From the NCBI GenBank assembly GCA_900313705.1, contig OMSJ01000004.1, positions 1-42,613 on the forward strand: a DNA stretch of 42,613 nt, in the 5' to 3' direction. Source of the DNA: an uncultured Prevotellaceae bacterium. Its GTDB lineage: Bacteria > Bacteroidota > Bacteroidia > Bacteroidales > Bacteroidaceae. The notes beneath the pieces were generated by a model. That model ran no database searches. It was not told the DNA's origin and saw nothing but the letters and a program-made list of their open reading frames with translations. The position numbers and the translations under genes are program-made. Of this stretch, positions 28,651 through 34,590 are shown in pieces (the first letter of the stretch is position 1; each line of letters opens with the position of its first letter).

Positions 28651-28908
28651 TTACTCCGCGGTTGCCGTTTCCTCTTCGGGTTCGGTAGTGTCCAGCTCTT
28701 CCAGTTCAGCATCAATCTCGTTGATGCGGTCGCGCATGGCCTGCCGCTCTGCGTGGAGCGTGTTTATGTCATACGGCAGTGGCAGCTCTGCGGCCTGAGC
28801 CTCTGCGCATTTGATAACCTTGTAGTCGCTGCTGCTGAGCTGCGACTCCATGTTCATCCTCTCGGTGTAGAGCGTGTTCTTGCGCTCGATGATTTCTGCT
28901 TGTGTCAT
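28651..28908 (-). CDS. Small coiled-coil protein overlapping the RT gene, 85 aa
   Basis: An 85-aa acidic protein (AEIIERKNTLYTERMNMESQL, then RQAMRDRINEIDAELEELDTTEPEEE) with coiled-coil character. Its first 140 nt overlap the 3' end of the reverse transcriptase in another frame. Family unknown; it may be a DGR accessory or belong to the downstream tail genes. It is the last minus gene before the convergent lipoprotein. Confidence 0.6.
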   Translation of the reverse strand: MTQAEIIERKNTLYTERMNMESQLSSSDYKVIKCAEAQAAELPLPYDINTLHAERQAMRDRINEIDAELEELDTTEPEEETATAE

Positions 28909-30133
28909 GATGTTTAAGTTTTAGGTGATACTTATCGTTCAGTCTTGATTTGATTGTATACTGAGGCAGATATGTCAAGCACATGCGCCGCTCATTATAC
29001 GCTGTCCATTGCTTCCAGTCTGGGTGCATCATATCCTTCAGTGCGGAGAGCCTGCCGAAGTCTGTACGGCCTTTGAGCTGTCCGGTGTAAGAATTGAATG
29101 ACGCAAGGAAGTGGTCGAGGTATCTCAACTTGTCTTCTGCTGCATTCATTTCTTCCATGTGTTCCACAGCGCGGTCGTAGGTCTTATTATTTAGATGTAT
29201 ACGGTGCGGCTTGATGTGACTGCCAAGGAACTCGAAGCCGTTCTGATACGGCTGGTCGTAGAACTTCCGTTCATTGAGCCTAATGCCCTTCGCCGCTAAT
29301 CGCTTGCGTAGTTCTGTCATGTAAGAAAGTGCATGGACGTGGCTGTCTTCTGCTACCACTTCGATTCCGTCGTCCATGAAGAGGGTAGTGCGAATGCAAC
29401 ATTCCTCGTTGAGCCACTTTACTTCGTCGTTCAGGTACAGTCCCATGCCTATCTGTGACGGAAGTCTACCGATGGGCGTGCCGATGCCTGGAGGCTTCCC
29501 GAACAGCGACTTCTCGGGCTCGATGTGCTCCATCCAGAAGTGCTTCGGTGTCCTGCGCTCGCAATGCTTGGCTGGATTGCAATAGATGCAGACCATTGCG
29601 AGCCATTTCATAAAGGAAGGGAAGTCTTCATCGAAGCGGTTGGTGATGTCTTCCTGGTTGTCATCTATCACCTTGGCGAAGCTGCGGAATATCTCATCGC
29701 ATAGTGCATTCTGGAAGAAGCCTTTCAGGTCCCACTTGATGACACGGCACGGCTTCGTGTAGCCTTCCGACACTTCGAAGATGTCTTCCATTACATGATT
29801 TATGGCTGCCTGGCCTCCCATGTTCTTGCGGTTGTTGAAAGTACACGGGTGAAGTATCTTTTCTATGTACGGCGCGAGCGTGTCACACAGCAGATGGTCG
29901 GCTATTCGCCCGTCGAATCGTGTGGCGAAGATTTCTCGCCACTTTGGTACGGATGTAAGGAAGGCATAGTTGTGGTCAACGCGGAAGGTCTTCTCTTGCA
30001 ATGTACGCATCATGCGCACCAACAGTGGTGCCCAGTTGCGCTCGAAGTCAGCGCAGTCGCGCCCGTAGCGTTTCTTTCGTCGGGCTTCGACCATCGTGTC
30101 GTACAGCAAAGCGAAGAACCTCTCTTCAGTCAT
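28769..30133 (-). CDS. DGR reverse transcriptase, 454 aa
   Basis: The enzyme copies the template-repeat RNA with errors at adenines. Motifs (numbered from ATG 30133): KWDLKGFF with D135, the DGR-typical LPSQ at 224-227, catalytic FMDD at 252-255 and FEFLGSHIKP at 300-309. The SQ in motif 4 separates DGR enzymes from retron and group II intron RTs. I choose ATG 30133 because the longer frame from a GTG lies inside the template repeat. The last 45 or so residues overlap the next gene and look like run-on, since conserved sequence ends near KSRLNDKYHL. Confidence 0.93.
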   Translation of the reverse strand: MTEERFFALLYDTMVEARRKKRYGRDCADFERNWAPLLVRMMRTLQEKTFRVDHNYAFLTSVPKWREIFATRFDGRIADHLLCDTLAPYIEKILHPCTFNNRKNMGGQAAINHVMEDIFEVSEGYTKPCRVIKWDLKGFFQNALCDEIFRSFAKVIDDNQEDITNRFDEDFPSFMKWLAMVCIYCNPAKHCERRTPKHFWMEHIEPEKSLFGKPPGIGTPIGRLPSQIGMGLYLNDEVKWLNEECCIRTTLFMDDGIEVVAEDSHVHALSYMTELRKRLAAKGIRLNERKFYDQPYQNGFEFLGSHIKPHRIHLNNKTYDRAVEHMEEMNAAEDKLRYLDHFLASFNSYTGQLKGRTDFGRLSALKDMMHPDWKQWTAYNERRMCLTYLPQYTIKSRLNDKYHLKLKHHDTSRNHRAQEHALHREDEHGVAAQQQRLQGYQMRRGSGRRAATAV

Positions 30134-30160
30134 AAGCGTTTGATTCGGTTTCGATAAATT

Positions 30161-30278
30161 CGTGACAGCCACAGCCTGATTCGCGTTGTAGACGTTGTTG
30201 TTGTTGAGCGTGCGGTTCGTGCCGTTGAAATTCCACGCGTTGTTGACGCCGTTCCTCTGTGCGAACCATCGGTTCGAG
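30161..30278 (-). repeat. DGR template repeat (TR)
   Basis: 118 nt matching the VR at 30904-31021. Read on the minus strand in VR phase it encodes S-N-R-W-F-A-Q-R-N-G-V-N-N-A-W and so on, with 13 AAC/AAT codons. About 35 adenines are present; 15 are changed in VR, versus one other base. The boundary may be off by one base. It lies between the Avd-like gene and the RT, the usual TR place. Confidence 0.93.
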
Positions 30279-30284
30279 GCGGTT

Positions 30285-30325
30285 AGGACGCATTAGTTGG
30301 AATACTATGAATGATAGTAGCGTCC
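30285..30325 (-). promoter_or_regulatory. Hairpin just upstream of the TR
   Basis: GGACGC pairs with GCGTCC, and TACTAT with ATAGTA inside, between the Avd-like stop and the TR on the minus strand. It would form part of the TR RNA 5' region, where structured RNA is needed in studied DGRs. Confidence 0.5.
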
Positions 30326-30333
30326 CCTTTTAC

Positions 30334-30774
30334 TTAATCGTTACTGTCGGCAGACTCTTCGGACGCGGTGTCCGCGACCTCCTGCCGGTCCTGACTCCTA
30401 AGTGACCGCGTAGCGTTGCGCCACTTCTTGATGCCTTCCTCTATCCGTTCCAGTTGTATAGCGATACGCAACTTGTCCCTGTCGGTCAGCAGTCCGAACT
30501 GAATGCACAGCTCAAAGGAAGCGAGCATCGTGCCAAAGTCGGCGAACATGCCATGGATGTGGGTGAGCCTCACTTCCTGGCACTCCATCGCCACCGTGAA
30601 GTGGCGAATCATGCTGTAGCATGCCGTCTTGAACTCCTGCGGAGCTCCTTCCATGCGTTCTATCTTCGGCATGCGCTGTATGGCAGGGTGTAACACGAGA
30701 AGCAGATTTTTCACGTCTGCCAGAATACTTCCCTTGTCCTTTCTTGCCTTGTTATTCCTTGTCCTTACCGCCAT
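30334..30774 (-). CDS. avd: DGR accessory protein, Avd-like four-helix bundle, 146 aa
   Basis: Avd proteins are barrel-shaped pentamers that bind the reverse transcriptase and the template RNA. Here the protein is helical and basic, with VKNLLLVLHPAIQRMPKIERM, a long FKTACYSMIRHFTVAMECQEV helix, a LASFELCIQFGLL segment and KLRIAIQLERIEEGIKKWRNATRS, the layout of the four-helix-bundle Avd family. N- and C-termini are charged and likely disordered. It lies between target and TR, the classical order, and overlaps the small upstream ORF by 23 nt. Confidence 0.8.
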   Translation of the reverse strand: MAVRTRNNKARKDKGSILADVKNLLLVLHPAIQRMPKIERMEGAPQEFKTACYSMIRHFTVAMECQEVRLTHIHGMFADFGTMLASFELCIQFGLLTDRDKLRIAIQLERIEEGIKKWRNATRSLRSQDRQEVADTASEESADSND

Positions 30775-30895
30775 ATCTTATTGCATATCGCTCTGCTTGC
30801 CGCTCGTATGCGGTTTGCAGATACTCGTCGTAGTTTGTTACTGTAGGCTCAGTGCGCTCTTGCGAGACGCGCTGAGACCTCTTAGATTTATTCAT
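30752..30895 (-). CDS. Small DGR-locus protein, 47 aa
   Basis: ATG at 30895 overlaps the target's stop (TAATG) and the frame ends inside the Avd-like start. The 47 residues (MNKSKRSQRVSQERTEPT, then TNYDEYLQTAYERQAERYAIRYGG) are basic with a Tyr-rich helix. The double overlap indicates translational coupling of target, this ORF and Avd. Function unknown. It also holds a hairpin lying 28 nt downstream of the VR. Confidence 0.6.
   Translation of the reverse strand: MNKSKRSQRVSQERTEPTVTNYDEYLQTAYERQAERYAIRYGGKDKE
30848..30876. promoter_or_regulatory. Hairpin downstream of the VR
   Basis: CTCAG/CTGAG plus GCG/CGC with one mismatch form an 8-bp stem 28 nt past the VR 3' end. DGRs such as BPP-1 need a DNA hairpin or cruciform just downstream of the VR for target recognition; this is a candidate, although further away than in BPP-1. 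Confidence 0.4.
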
Positions 30896-32208
30896 TATAA
30901 AAGCGTGACAGCCACAGCCTGCGGCGCGTTGTAGACGTAGCTGTAGTTGAGCGTGCGGCTCGTGCCGTAGAAAAGCCACGCGGTGCCGACGCCGTACCTC
31001 TGCGCGAACCATCGGGTCGAGCTATTAGCAAGTGTTACCTTTCCGGCCTTGGACTGTGTGCCGTTGATGATGGCGAGGTTTGCATCCTCAAGCATCGTTA
31101 CACCTTCCATTACATCCCACAGATGACCGCCCTGATTGTATGCCCAGTTCATGGTAGGGAACTTTGCCTTTGTGCTACCCGCCTTCGTCGGTGCCAACCT
31201 GGGGCCGTACTTTGCGGTCAGCACTTCGCCGTCTGGCAAGCCAAACACGCCGACTTTCATCTGCGCGAGGATGCCAAACTCGCCGCGCAGATATGCCTCG
31301 TAGGTCTTGTAGTATGCACGAATCTCGGACGCGTAAGGCGAAGTCTGGAACTCCGTTAGCTTCATGGGGTCGGTGCTGCCTGCTTCGCTATGCACGGCCA
31401 CGTCAGCGGCCAGGGTCCGTCCGTTGGTACCCCAATACGTCACAGCTCCCGCGAAGTTCATGATGCCGCGCGTGCCGGTTGTCTTGCCGTTCACTTTCAG
31501 GTAGCTTGTTGCAAGTGGCATGTCGCCCCACGTGGAGAAGGTGAGCGTACCGCCCGTGCAACCGCAGTTGTACTGCTGGTAGTTGCTCCACACATCGCAC
31601 TGAACGATGATGCGCGTTGCGCCGGTGTCCACCTTCTCGTCGTCGTCGTTGGCGAGGTAGCACCACCATGCGTTCGTGTCGCCCAGCTGCGCTGCCTTTT
31701 CTGCAAGGGCCACATTGATTTCGGACACAGTGGTGGCGTTGAAGGCTGTAGAGGTGAGCGTCACGGGAACGTCGATGTTAGTGCCATACTGCGCGTCGCC
31801 GCTCTTCGATGTGTCGCGGATGCGGAGCTTCAGTGTGAGGCTCGTATCGGTGATGGCTGTCAGCGCATACTGAAGCACGTCGGCGTACTTGTACGAAGGC
31901 AGGCTGGCATAGTTCCCGAGGAACACGCGCCAACGTCCGTCCTTGTAATAGCCGAGGAACACTCCCTTATACGTCCACGATGCGGGTACCAGACTGCGGT
32001 TATAGACATCCTTGCGGATGGCCACCTTGTTGCCGTTCTCGTCAAGATAGACAGCGTCGCCAAAGGTCGGCGTTTCCGTAGTCGGCACGTTAACGCCGTC
32101 GAATTCGCTAATGTTACCAGCCTTGATGTTTGCCACGCGGCTCTCTGCGGTAGGCTTGCCAGCTGCATTGTAGCTGGCAGCGTCATTATATTGCTCAATC
32201 TGTTTCAT
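30895..32208 (-). CDS. DGR target, putative receptor-binding protein, 437 aa
   Basis: The virion protein diversified by the retroelement. The variable region covers residues about 398-429 near the C-terminus. DGR targets carry it on a C-type-lectin fold, which fits LWDVMEGVTMLEDANLAIINGT then TRWFAQRYG and AWLFYGTSR here. Variable residues include T398, Y405, G408, T409, L412, Y414, S417, 421-424, N427 and P429. The N-terminal 390 residues are beta-rich (KGVFLGYYKDGRWRVFLGNY). It lies after two fibre genes, so it probably sits at the fibre tip. Confidence 0.88.
   Translation of the reverse strand: MKQIEQYNDAASYNAAGKPTAESRVANIKAGNISEFDGVNVPTTETPTFGDAVYLDENGNKVAIRKDVYNRSLVPASWTYKGVFLGYYKDGRWRVFLGNYASLPSYKYADVLQYALTAITDTSLTLKLRIRDTSKSGDAQYGTNIDVPVTLTSTAFNATTVSEINVALAEKAAQLGDTNAWWCYLANDDDEKVDTGATRIIVQCDVWSNYQQYNCGCTGGTLTFSTWGDMPLATSYLKVNGKTTGTRGIMNFAGAVTYWGTNGRTLAADVAVHSEAGSTDPMKLTEFQTSPYASEIRAYYKTYEAYLRGEFGILAQMKVGVFGLPDGEVLTAKYGPRLAPTKAGSTKAKFPTMNWAYNQGGHLWDVMEGVTMLEDANLAIINGTQSKAGKVTLANSSTRWFAQRYGVGTAWLFYGTSRTLNYSYVYNAPQAVAVTLL
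30904..31021 (-). repeat. DGR variable repeat (VR)
   Basis: Shares 102 of 118 positions with the TR. Eleven of the 13 TR Asn codons are changed (to Thr, Tyr, Gly, Leu, Ser or Pro), always at A positions, and one silent GCA to GCG change is also at an A. The only non-A difference (T to G on the coding strand) lies next to the invariant 3' part CAGGCTGTGGCTGTCACG, the likely IMH that sets direction. Confidence 0.93.
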
Positions 32209-32286: not shown

Positions 32287-34590
32287 TTAATTAAGTGCCA
32301 CCCAGTCGTTGGTGCTATTCGTAAGCGCAACGGCGACATACACCTTCTTGGCGACCTTGTCGATGTACTGCTGGCCGATGAAGCGCGGACAGCCGTTCCA
32401 CACGCCCATCGTCTTCTCTTCCCAGTTGTCGGGGGTGTTCTCGGCACTCGGCGCACCTTCCACGGAGCTTTCCAGCACGTCTGGAGTTCCAAACTTCGTC
32501 ACGCGCTCGCAGTTCACAGCCTGGGTCTTCACGGCTGGCAGAACGGCAACATCCTTTCCAGTCAGCATCTCGCGCAGAGCCTTGTTCTCATTATAGAGGT
32601 AAAGCATGGCTTCGGCGATAACGGGGATGGTCTTGTTGTCGATATTGCTCAACATCTGCCGCACGCTGTCTGGAATGCCCTGTGCGTAGGCGATGTTGAT
32701 GTAGGCACTGCCGACTGCACCCTGGATGATGATGAGACCCCAGTCCTCAACGGTAAATGAACTGCTGACAGCTGCCGTGCCTGTTGCTTCGTCAGCAAGC
32801 TCGTACTTCACATAGTCGCTCTGTACGGTGGCGTTGCTGTCGGTGAAGCTGACTGTTGTGCCATCTACGCTTAACTCCTGACTAAGCGTCTCGAATGCTG
32901 CTGCACCGCCTGCCTTCATGCCGCTGATGGTGGCGGTATGTATGTAGTCGCCCGTAGGATCACCCTCAGACTCCACGGGGGTATTTGTCCATGTCGGCTG
33001 CACGTGGTCGACAAGGCGGTGCCATGTTATCTGATTGTCGCCCGTGCGCTCGATGCGGTCTGCCACGTTGCCAACAGTCAGCATCTTGTCGTAGGTATGG
33101 AGAGCGTGGATGCCTGCGGCTATATCCACCTCCGAGCCTGCATCGCTGGCATCGTTGGCGGCTACATAGTCGTCATAACGCTTGCTCCATCCGATGTGCG
33201 CACAAGTGACAGCACGGTCAATACCGCTCACGATGAGATAGCCGGCCTGCGAGGTGGTGAAGAAGCGGTAGTTCTTGCCTCCAGTGCTGGCGTCGGTGTA
33301 AGCGCAAGCTGTTCCATCGGTGACGCTCGTAGGCACGCCGTTGGCAAGCGGCTTGAAGTACACCGTCGGGCGGAGGTTCTCGCCCTGGCTGTTAGTGAAG
33401 AGTACGCCGTTAGGCTGTGATGCCGTGTTGATAGTACCGAAGGGAAGTGCAGGAACCATGAAGTACCATCCATTACCTACAGCTGTTGCTCTGCGCAAGA
33501 GATTGAAGCCGGTTGCGATGAGCTTCGATGCAGAGAAGTCGGTCTTCGCGGCAATCGACACCAACGTAGCGGGCACGCTGCTGTCGATGCTCAGGTCACC
33601 GCCCGTTGTCTCCACTACACCCTCCTGAGTGTAGTTGGCGTTCTGTGTACTGCCAGCCCACGATGCGAGGTTATCGGCAAGTGCGGGAATGACCGTGCCG
33701 TTCTCCAGATTTTCCTGAAGGGCGTTTGCTCCGGCTGCTGCTGCGTTGGCGGCCGCGGTAGCGGCTTCGCTGGCGGTGTGGTCGGCCTCGGCGCGGGTAT
33801 GGTCTGAGGTGGCGGTCGTGTGGTCGCTGGCTGCAGCGGTATGGTCAGCTGTGGCTGTTGCGTGGTCGGAAGCGGCAGTCGTATGGTCAGCTGCTGCTTG
33901 TACGTGGTCAGCATCGGCACGCTCCACAAGCTCAGTCATCTGGGCGTTGTCTTGCACGGCGATTTCATGGTCTGCCTCGGCGCGGGTGTGGTCGCTATCG
34001 GCCTGCTGATGGTCAGCAACGGCCACCGCGTGGTCTTCGGCAAAGACAGCCTGGCGGTTGTTCTCGTTCAACTGCCTCTGAGTCTCTGCTGCCACTCGGC
34101 TTGCTTCCTGGTTGACGCGCTGCTGTTCCTTGGTGACACGCTGTTGCTCAGCACCCATGCGAGCCTGTTCCTGATTGATGCGGAGGTTCTCTTGTGTCAC
34201 GCGGTTGCTCTCTGCCTGCACGCGGGCACTCTCGGCGTTGGCACGGGCGTTCTCGGCATTGATGCGGGCGTTCTCGGCATTGATGCGGGCATTTTCGCGA
34301 CTGATGCGTTGTTCTTCGGCACTGACGCGCTCTGCCTCGTTTCCGGTCATCTGCGTGTCAATCTCAATGAGGTGGTCGGCTTCGGACTTGATGCTTGACA
34401 TGTCGATGATGCAGAACCACCATTGCGGGTCTGTCAGAGCATGGCCGACGTTGCCGGACTTCAGCGAGCGATAGACACTCAGACCCGTTGGGTCTTGCAC
34501 TACGGCTGCATTGCCATAGACGGTAGCGGCGTTGTAGGTTCCCTTCCACGCCTCGCCTACCTGATAGCGAATTTCTTGAAATGTGTCCAT
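32287..34590 (-). CDS. Long tail fibre protein with heptad-repeat stalk, 767 aa
   Basis: Residues about 80-190 are a coiled coil of 7-residue units (ENARINA-, ESARVQA-like). Residues about 205-270 are a second stalk of units with Asp-His at fixed spacing (ADHTTAASDHATATADH). Such stalks trimerise phage fibres. The C-terminal 450 residues are beta-rich and end with a NWEEKTMGVWNGCPRFIGQQYIDKVAKKVYVA segment near 730, a pattern common in Bacteroidales phage fibre tips. It directly precedes the DGR target gene, so fibre and variable tip probably work together. Confidence 0.78.
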   Translation of the reverse strand: MDTFQEIRYQVGEAWKGTYNAATVYGNAAVVQDPTGLSVYRSLKSGNVGHALTDPQWWFCIIDMSSIKSEADHLIEIDTQMTGNEAERVSAEEQRISRENARINAENARINAENARANAESARVQAESNRVTQENLRINQEQARMGAEQQRVTKEQQRVNQEASRVAAETQRQLNENNRQAVFAEDHAVAVADHQQADSDHTRAEADHEIAVQDNAQMTELVERADADHVQAAADHTTAASDHATATADHTAAASDHTTATSDHTRAEADHTASEAATAAANAAAAGANALQENLENGTVIPALADNLASWAGSTQNANYTQEGVVETTGGDLSIDSSVPATLVSIAAKTDFSASKLIATGFNLLRRATAVGNGWYFMVPALPFGTINTASQPNGVLFTNSQGENLRPTVYFKPLANGVPTSVTDGTACAYTDASTGGKNYRFFTTSQAGYLIVSGIDRAVTCAHIGWSKRYDDYVAANDASDAGSEVDIAAGIHALHTYDKMLTVGNVADRIERTGDNQITWHRLVDHVQPTWTNTPVESEGDPTGDYIHTATISGMKAGGAAAFETLSQELSVDGTTVSFTDSNATVQSDYVKYELADEATGTAAVSSSFTVEDWGLIIIQGAVGSAYINIAYAQGIPDSVRQMLSNIDNKTIPVIAEAMLYLYNENKALREMLTGKDVAVLPAVKTQAVNCERVTKFGTPDVLESSVEGAPSAENTPDNWEEKTMGVWNGCPRFIGQQYIDKVAKKVYVAVALTNSTNDWVALN

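Follow-up and report, generated by a model that had tools for sequence, protein, structure and literature searches.

The DGR (diversity-generating retroelement) of BPP-1 (NC_005357) consists of the target gene mtd with its VR, avd, the TR and the reverse transcriptase (RT) gene brt, in that order and on one strand. It mutates adenines, and a hairpin that follows the VR is described as needed for efficient homing in PMC3240598. Closer in host are the Bacuni phages F1, F2 and F4 of Bacteroides uniformis (MT635598, MT806186 and MT806185), Bacteroidales phages with Avd and a TR beside the RT, for which PMC8143477 reports two VRs. Structured RNAs beside DGR RTs are catalogued in Rfam as RT-15 (RF03018), RT-7 (RF03028), Phage_DGR (RF03022) and RT-14 (RF02921).

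Here we analyse a window of 42,613 nucleotides, the whole stretch of contig OMSJ01000004.1 (GCA_900313705.1) that was studied, from an uncultured Prevotellaceae bacterium. It very probably carries a phage DGR in which a template from the avd–TR–RT region would be copied, with misreading of adenines, into the VR of a target gene. The original prediction of a complete DGR is borne out, and the relatives add that each VR tracks its own TR. A Bacteroidales phage, also predicted, agrees with the portal relatives: all seven in named genomes belong to Prevotella or Prevotellaceae MAGs.

Organisation of the cassette

The cassette lies on the minus strand, as do all features described below, in the predicted order: target gene with VR, a 47-aa ORF, an Avd-like gene, TR and RT gene. 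The target ORF (30895–32208; 437 aa) has the VR (30904–31021) at its 3′ end, and its stop overlaps the start of the small ORF (30752–30895) in TAATG. The small ORF has tblastn matches in L005 and L006 only, over 38 positions (53–55%). The Avd-like gene (30334–30774; 146 aa) matches the PHROG Avd family (phrog_3206, E 4.6e-8) and scores under the cut-offs of NCBIfam NF033474 (21.8 bits versus 80) and Pfam bAvd (17.9 versus 40), and its profile has no PDB match up to E 1; it is conserved in five relatives, and its position fits Avd. Behind it lie the TR (30161–30278), recognised by its adenine-biased pairing with the VR, and the RT gene (28769–30133; 454 aa), most likely starting at the conserved ATG at 30133. 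The RT has the predicted SQ-type motif 4 (GRLPSQ) and catalytic FMDD, and matches RVT_1 (2.5e-9) and the PHROG RT family phrog_1423 (5e-34). Its only PDB match is the 328-aa RT of 8ub7 and eight sister entries, which we take to be that of BPP-1.

Upstream of the target is a 767-aa virion or fibre-like gene (32287–34590), with matches to phrog_17134 (unknown, 1.4e-12) and phrog_23208 (virion structural, 4.5e-5). An 85-aa gene (28651–28908) overlaps the RT 3′ end; it is shared by L004, L005, L006, L010 and L011, and in the cassette-less locus L012 it stands close behind the target. TR and VR are the sole copies found in the genome bin, which is 80.5% complete. A target 62–80% identical occurs in six other viral contigs; a deeper target scan found no further viral loci, and an RT scan of genome contigs found no relative.

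The target matches no family in Pfam, NCBIfam or PHROG. A lectin-like C-terminus had been proposed, and no lectin fold was found with AlphaFold, Pfam or profile comparisons. The AlphaFold models, with a pLDDT of 34.9 for the whole target and 31.8 for residues 227–437, are unusable. Aligned by hhalign to Lcl_C-type DGR targets, the target reaches 9% probability (pairwise E 0.0035) with the VR in register; against Mtd, the VR region has no match. A PDB profile search returned four marginal matches (best E 0.031), all outside the VR, of which three are to mannose-binding protein at target residues 160–239 with E about 1. Its place among tail-region genes, together with DGR precedent, makes a receptor-binding protein or tip plausible, and its variation could then serve host-range switching, as originally suggested.

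The RNA element ahead of the TR

A 42-nt element (30285–30326) begins 7 nt past the avd stop and ends 6 nt ahead of the TR. It folds into a 7-bp outer stem, an inner 6-bp hairpin with UCAUUYA and an 11-nt 3′ bulge. The stems show compensatory changes, and within the host's family the element recurs ahead of TRs in DGRs with RT identities of only 25–30%. The pair count is based on four distinct rows; those of L010, L011, L072 and L074 were excluded because MAFFT placed their outer arms out of register. For L010, L072 and L074 the pairs were compiled manually, and the stems of L011 equal those of L010. Model R1, run over 399 genomes, placed only its two seed loci below 1e-3 (its 16 other matches have E above 0.007 and lie in approximately 3-kb loci without an RT match), and over the collected loci it missed L010, L011, L072 and L074; it is too narrow. 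A closing helix GCGGT/ACYGC beside the TR was considered as a general feature and rejected, since it could not be recognised when more distant loci were folded.

At gathering thresholds, Rfam finds only a tRNA in the window, and the 271 nt round the TR give one unrelated 13.5-bit match at E up to 5. None of RT-15, RT-7, Phage_DGR and RT-14 matches the window; RT-7 matches one distant locus, L040, under its gathering score. RT-7, RT-14 and RT-15 reportedly stem from a 2017 paper. Judged against these families, the small structured element appears to be new.

Synonymous conservation is raised in the neighbouring 3′ third of avd (30337–30486). In three comparisons with relatives, identical codons number 30/38, 31/38 and 32/39 in codons 97–146, against 39/74, 42/73 and 36/72 in codons 1–96 (Fisher 0.005, 0.009 and 0.0007, respectively). 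This constrained part probably belongs to the template RNA.

The element may end the cDNA or dock RT–Avd. We tentatively suggest, with more doubt than conviction, that DGRs of a Prevotella/Bacteroides-host branch carry a templating scaffold 5′ of the TR (a stem, a stacked hairpin and an 11–15-nt bulge, with the avd 3′ end beside it) that would end the cDNA and/or dock RT–Avd, replacing the work of the long 3′ spacer of BPP-1, and would form an uncatalogued RNA family marking TRs. A frozen descriptor, tested across other families of the order, gave a weak result, and for that reason we hold this view slightly less firmly than before. A terminator or regulator of avd, unrelated to templating, would suit both the start of the element so close to the avd stop in this window and the failure to find this plan clearly in other families of the order, but it is unlikely: no T-run follows the element, and in a position-loose first scan its 3′ arm ended 2–7 nt before the TR in well-scoring loci. 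At L040, moreover, TR and RT gene lie about 900 nt apart, and a fold with this plan (judged by eye) still adjoins the TR; at L083 a non-seed match of the genome-wide model lies directly ahead of an AAC-rich, TR-like stretch. As a putative templating scaffold, the element offers a testable handle on where cDNA starts or stops in compact DGRs that cannot accommodate a spacer like that of BPP-1, and may help locate TRs whose VR lies beyond the contig, as at L083.

Copying from TR to VR

Over the 118 nt of their alignment, TR and VR differ at 16 positions: 15 are TR adenines (of 35 present) and one is a T (hypergeometric p 1.2e-8). These counts reproduce the original prediction, as do the 13 AAC/AAT codons in the VR frame, 11 of them changed, and the variable residues T398 to P429. 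The changes create no stop codon, and all five complete VRs are free of stops. Repeat finding alone gives a 125-nt repeat; relatives, however, keep the target-final CTTTTRTAA whatever the TR has there, so the homology ends at nt 118 and mutagenesis of the seven extra bases (nt 119–125) is ruled out.

The IMH had been placed in the last 19 or so residues, which did not hold: the invariant 3′ part comprises 18 nt (6 codons). This G+C-rich VR end (30904–30921, identical to TR 30161–30178) is the candidate IMH; within each of six elements TR and VR agree over it, although its sequence differs among elements. A hairpin (30848–30876) lies 27 nt past the VR and consists of a 9-position stem with one C–A mismatch, a T bulge, 3 bp and a GCAA loop. 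It is present in all seven window-type loci (five distinct sequences), including L012, and six of the nine outer-stem pairs vary among loci, five of the six always as standard pairs.

Five related phage loci have TR/VR pairs of their own, with 17/17, 19/19, 18/19, 18/18 and 17/18 differences at A (89/91 pooled); adenine bias is thus present in six of six pairs. At 17 A-free columns with differing TRs, each VR equals its own TR in 258 of 258 comparisons across the six elements, which are comparative and not independent of one another. The VR has therefore been copied from the adjacent TR. A relative contig of 88,861 bp (G143) has both ends inside its VR, 2 nt apart, an indirect hint of RT-dependent VR diversity in the population.

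We propose that the avd–TR–RT transcript would fold 5′ of the TR, that RT with Avd would copy the TR to cDNA while misreading adenines, and that this cDNA would replace the VR at the target gene 3′ end, where the 18-nt IMH and the hairpin behind it would fix the cDNA 3′ end. We infer these enzymatic steps, and a cassette that is probably active at present, from what is legible in the sequences: its parts, adenine specificity, TR-to-own-VR copying, the hairpin and the conserved fold before the TR. A once-active DGR now silent, its VR a fixed product and its RT no longer working, is decidedly unlikely: the ORFs are intact, the RT is 74% identical over its length to those of L004, L005 and L006 with catalytic motifs retained, and among the non-A positions the VR departs from the TR at a single one, which argues for little decay since the last copying. 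Silence would nonetheless fit an RT that runs beyond the stop where its relatives end, with a changed C-terminus, and the single VR state in the genome bin, as any assembly would show; L012, with a diversified VR and the hairpin but no Avd, TR or RT, shows that such a VR may persist when the cassette is absent. An ordinary duplication diversified by selection on the target can be dismissed as already contradicted: the confinement of all 16 changes to 11 AAY codons plus one synonymous site might largely be produced by selection acting on surface residues; against it stand a bias common to every pair, a change at A402 that falls on an A although synonymous, and own-TR matches at A-free columns that would not be kept without copying.

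Comparison with known DGRs

With BPP-1 the cassette, very probably an adenine-mutating DGR, shares gene order on one strand, the post-VR hairpin and RT similarity (328 aa in 8ub7, like brt). It differs in the TR–RT gap, 27 nt here versus 144 nt in BPP-1, which leaves no room outside the RT gene for a BPP-1-type 3′ spacer RNA. The VR domain of Mtd is not matched by the target profile, and RF03022 matches BPP-1 and not the window. The GCAA loop deviates at its second base from the published GRNA consensus (PMC3240598), and the stem carries one mismatch. The element resembles RT-15, which ends at the TR 5′ boundary and whose closing stem has an unpaired 3′ strand, but RT-15 has 192 nt and several hairpins.

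The Bacuni RTs are 28–31% identical to the RT here. About 45 nt ahead of their detected TR start, a 15-nt hairpin is identical in sequence to the inner hairpin of the L006 element, with a model match of only E 0.5, and F1 fails the element descriptor. Their target is of Lcl_C/DUF1566 type, whereas the target here is without family match, and one VR is present here rather than the two reported. The locus brings in a group of Prevotella-type phages whose DGRs reveal VR copying from TR by sequence alone, with L012 as a cassette-less target allele for comparison. The DGR is a known kind of system, and this phage is a further case of it.

Phage, cassette layout and copying of the template

The window, contig 62 of a 2.83-Mb genome bin, encodes a tailed phage with an HK97-type capsid and portal, an S78 protease, a tail tube, a tape measure, a tyrosine integrase and an endolysin; a terminase large subunit fragment (profile positions 445–668 of 812) lies near its right end. 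Relatives of the portal in named genomes are all from Prevotella or Prevotellaceae MAGs (7 of 7), and four of these have rumen or reticulum in their titles. A tRNA-His gene lies within the phage (7461–7552); the record of Bordetella phage BPP-1, which carries a diversity-generating retroelement (DGR), mentions an attachment site in a tRNA-His. All parts of the cassette are read from the minus strand: the target gene (32208–30895), a small ORF (30895–30752), an Avd-like gene (30774–30334), the template repeat (TR, 30278–30161) and the reverse transcriptase (RT, 30133–28769). Read in different frames, the 3′ end of the RT gene and the next gene (28651–28908) overlap; the shared stretch is 140 nt long in the window and about 74 nt in the related phage loci L004, L006 and L010, where the RT stop is earlier.

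The original prediction of 16 differences between TR and variable repeat (VR) over 118 nt, 15 of them at some 35 TR adenines, was reproduced with the same counts (35 adenines; p = 1.2 × 10−8). In the five related phage DGRs, VR differences fall at TR adenines in 17 of 17 (L006), 19 of 19 (L004), 18 of 18 (L010), 17 of 18 (L011) and 18 of 19 cases (L005, 116 nt compared). The strongest test uses A-free columns and is thus independent of the adenine bias: at 17 such columns where the TRs of different elements differ, all 258 ordered comparisons have the VR agreeing with its own TR and none with the other TR, the comparisons being non-independent and the TRs of common ancestry. They are nevertheless unanimous: after the divergence of these elements, each VR was rewritten from the TR beside it. 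The TR/VR homology ends at nt 118, since the target's closing codons (CTTTTRTAA) are constant whatever comes after the TR. In a search of the bin (80.5% complete), the TR and VR are the only TR-like copies, and there is therefore one known target.

Motif 4 of the RT reads SQ in 34, TQ in 8, WQ in 5 and AQ in 1 of 48 aligned RTs, the Q being kept in all 48. Five related DGR RTs (L010, L011, L072, L073 and L074) have IWQ instead of the usual SQ, yet all five have A-specific VRs: the counts for L010 and L011 are given above, and in the last three, whose TR/VR pairs were chosen by a 70% A-bias filter, 16 of 16, 16 of 17 and 18 of 18 differences are at A.

Two observations are signs of activity. 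None of the five complete pairs has a stop codon in the VR, and contig G143 (88,861 bp; loci L005 and L013) begins and ends inside one and the same VR, its ends being two bases apart (columns 54 and 57). The latter is most simply read as a circular genome whose assembly was not closed through a hypervariable stretch; by our own arithmetic, a chance break would fall inside 118 bp of 88.9 kb about once in 750, for a single case noted post hoc. The window cassette is a complete phage DGR, a known kind of system, and very probably works.

The target gene and its probable homing site

A hairpin made up of a nine-position stem, a T bulge, 3 bp and a GCAA loop lies 27 nt after the VR. All 7 window-type loci have such a hairpin (in 5 distinct versions; 2–3 inner pairs; GNAA loop). 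Six of the nine outer positions vary among loci, five of them always as standard pairs; the window hairpin has one C–A mismatch. In fifteen further DGR loci this region was folded only, without scoring. Guo et al. 2011 (PMC3240598) showed that BPP-1 needs a hairpin of this kind to home efficiently; the consensus loop is GRNA, from which GCAA and GTAA deviate at the second base, whereas GAAA (L006) conforms.

The relative L012 (2987–4700) has a target 62% identical to that of the window, a VR and the post-VR hairpin, and no Avd, TR or RT was found between its target and the next gene. Its VR differs from the L010 TR at 32 positions, 23 of them at A (p = 1 × 10−7), with C or T as the last base at each of the 16 AAY positions. 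Across its 63-kb record, which is perhaps incomplete, the RT-frame search matched only a stretch overlapping the next gene and the TR search only the VR. L012 looks like a diversified target after cassette loss, or one served in trans.

Target and RT do not have a single common history, because their identities to the window are opposed (tblastn): L010 has 78% for the target and 52% for the RT (Avd, 35%), whereas L005/L013 have 74% for the RT and 64% for the target. By eye, target residues 1–104 and 227–395 are conserved, and residues 105–226 (31531–31896) fall into clearly different types among otherwise similar phages, which suggests domain swapping in this middle part. From its tail-region position and DGR precedent, we favour a receptor-binding tip as the target's role; structure predictions and profile comparisons of the target did not confirm a lectin fold. 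According to Roux et al. 2021 (PMC8144416), three phage-dominated lineages among more than 30,000 DGRs are seemingly directed at host attachment.

A predicted RNA element 5′ of the TR

A small structured RNA, the TR-5′ element, is predicted at 30285–30326, 6 nt before the TR. Its fold is well supported within the host's family and in a small number of gut phage records. In the window class, 9 of 9 sequences keep the loop UCAUUYA unaltered while the stems change: over 4 distinct rows, 98% of cells are paired (slid controls 22–56%), and both partners changed in 5 of 13 pairs. A second class (7 rows, bulge TACGAWGNTGCA) has 97.8% paired (slid controls 20–38%), with 5 pairs in which both partners changed. 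Because the structures come from these very sequences, the comparison with slid controls is tilted in their favour. A model of the second class gave three matches below 1 × 10−13 in 399 family genomes (next best 0.003); two are seeds and the third, non-seed L083 on G378, is directly followed by a TR-like stretch rich in AAC and a DGR RT.

When the 75 nt before the TR of distant DGRs were folded, one plan emerged: an outer stem, a hairpin stacked on its 5′ arm, an unpaired 3′ bulge and the TR. A first descriptor, built after viewing ten loci and loose in distance to the TR (up to 30 nt), was scanned over 34 loci; 4 of 24 non-design loci reached p ≤ 0.05 against shuffles (L072, L073, L074 and L092, 2–7 nt from the TR), and L080 and L087 gave p 0.07. 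Folds were then inspected and the descriptor tightened (bulge 9–15, distance up to 8), which leaves the later count unblinded. Among 44 loci (those 28 of 32 RT loci that have an A-biased TR/VR pair, 6 close loci and 10 of 12 phage loci), a score of 22 was reached by 10 of 10 design loci and 12 of 34 others, with 1.3 expected from dinucleotide shuffles. L081 and L096, both in this group of 12, nearly duplicate each other, and the passes of L090 and BPP-1, exactly at 22, may be chance. By eye, the plan can also be recognised in L040, L071, L084, L094 and L097, where the hairpin is larger or offset; it is not seen in the other 17, several of which have a different, AGATG-type motif. Run frozen on new genomes of the order (29 new RT loci, a TR/VR pair in 13), the descriptor reached 22 in 3 of 13 against 0.55 expected; two are near-identical A+T-rich stems (p 0.07–0.08), and the detected TR start looks truncated in some loci. 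This order-level result is weak and does not extend the element past the host's family and those few phage records.

A different motif, AGATG..TG.C-like, precedes the TR in L046, L078, L085, L088, L089 and L090 and may be a second class of TR-5′ RNA; the TRs detected there are long, at 184–204 nt in five loci and 143 nt in L088. In L153, L162, L167 and L177, from other families of the order, the TR is preceded by related-looking A+T-rich sequence containing ATATGAACGCC, which is perhaps yet another class.

Possible role and comparison with known elements

In BPP-1, according to PMC12875486, a spacer 3′ of the TR recruits RT–Avd and primes cDNA, and a motif at the avd 3′ end stops it. The gap from TR to brt is 144 nt in BPP-1, in contrast to 27–30 nt from TR to RT in the window and its five relatives. 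Conserved RNA signal lies upstream of the TR, in the TR-5′ element and the last 50 avd codons, where identical codons number 30/38 against 39/74 elsewhere in avd for L004 (Fisher 0.005), 31/38 against 42/73 for L006 (0.009) and 32/39 against 36/72 for L005 (0.0007), the relatives being non-independent. A spacer overlapping the RT gene is possible: its first 25 codons are somewhat conserved (14/19, 17/20 and 15/20 against about half; p 0.04, 0.001 and 0.04), although other RT stretches are nearly as conserved (50/69 in codons 51–75). For the TR-5′ element we favour a role in which it would act as a stop or docking site; this is why the element may matter (MECHANISTICALLY).

At gathering thresholds, no Rfam family matched the element in the window or 14 other loci, nor did any around the window TR with E values as high as 5; in five loci searched to E 1, the sole related match was RT-7 on L040, below its cut-off. 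In controls, Phage_DGR matched the BPP-1 spacer, RT-14 the BalMu-1 spacer and RT-15 three proteobacterial phage DGRs. A search of openly available main texts (including PMC8040213, PMC10743442 and PMC8867640; subscription papers and supplements lay outside it) returned no description of the element. The noteworthy remainder is this uncatalogued template-RNA element and a natural comparison set. RT-15, which ends at the TR of its proteobacterial phage DGRs, shows that catalogues already include structured RNA on the 5′ side of a DGR TR; the element in the window is a shorter, unmatched kind.
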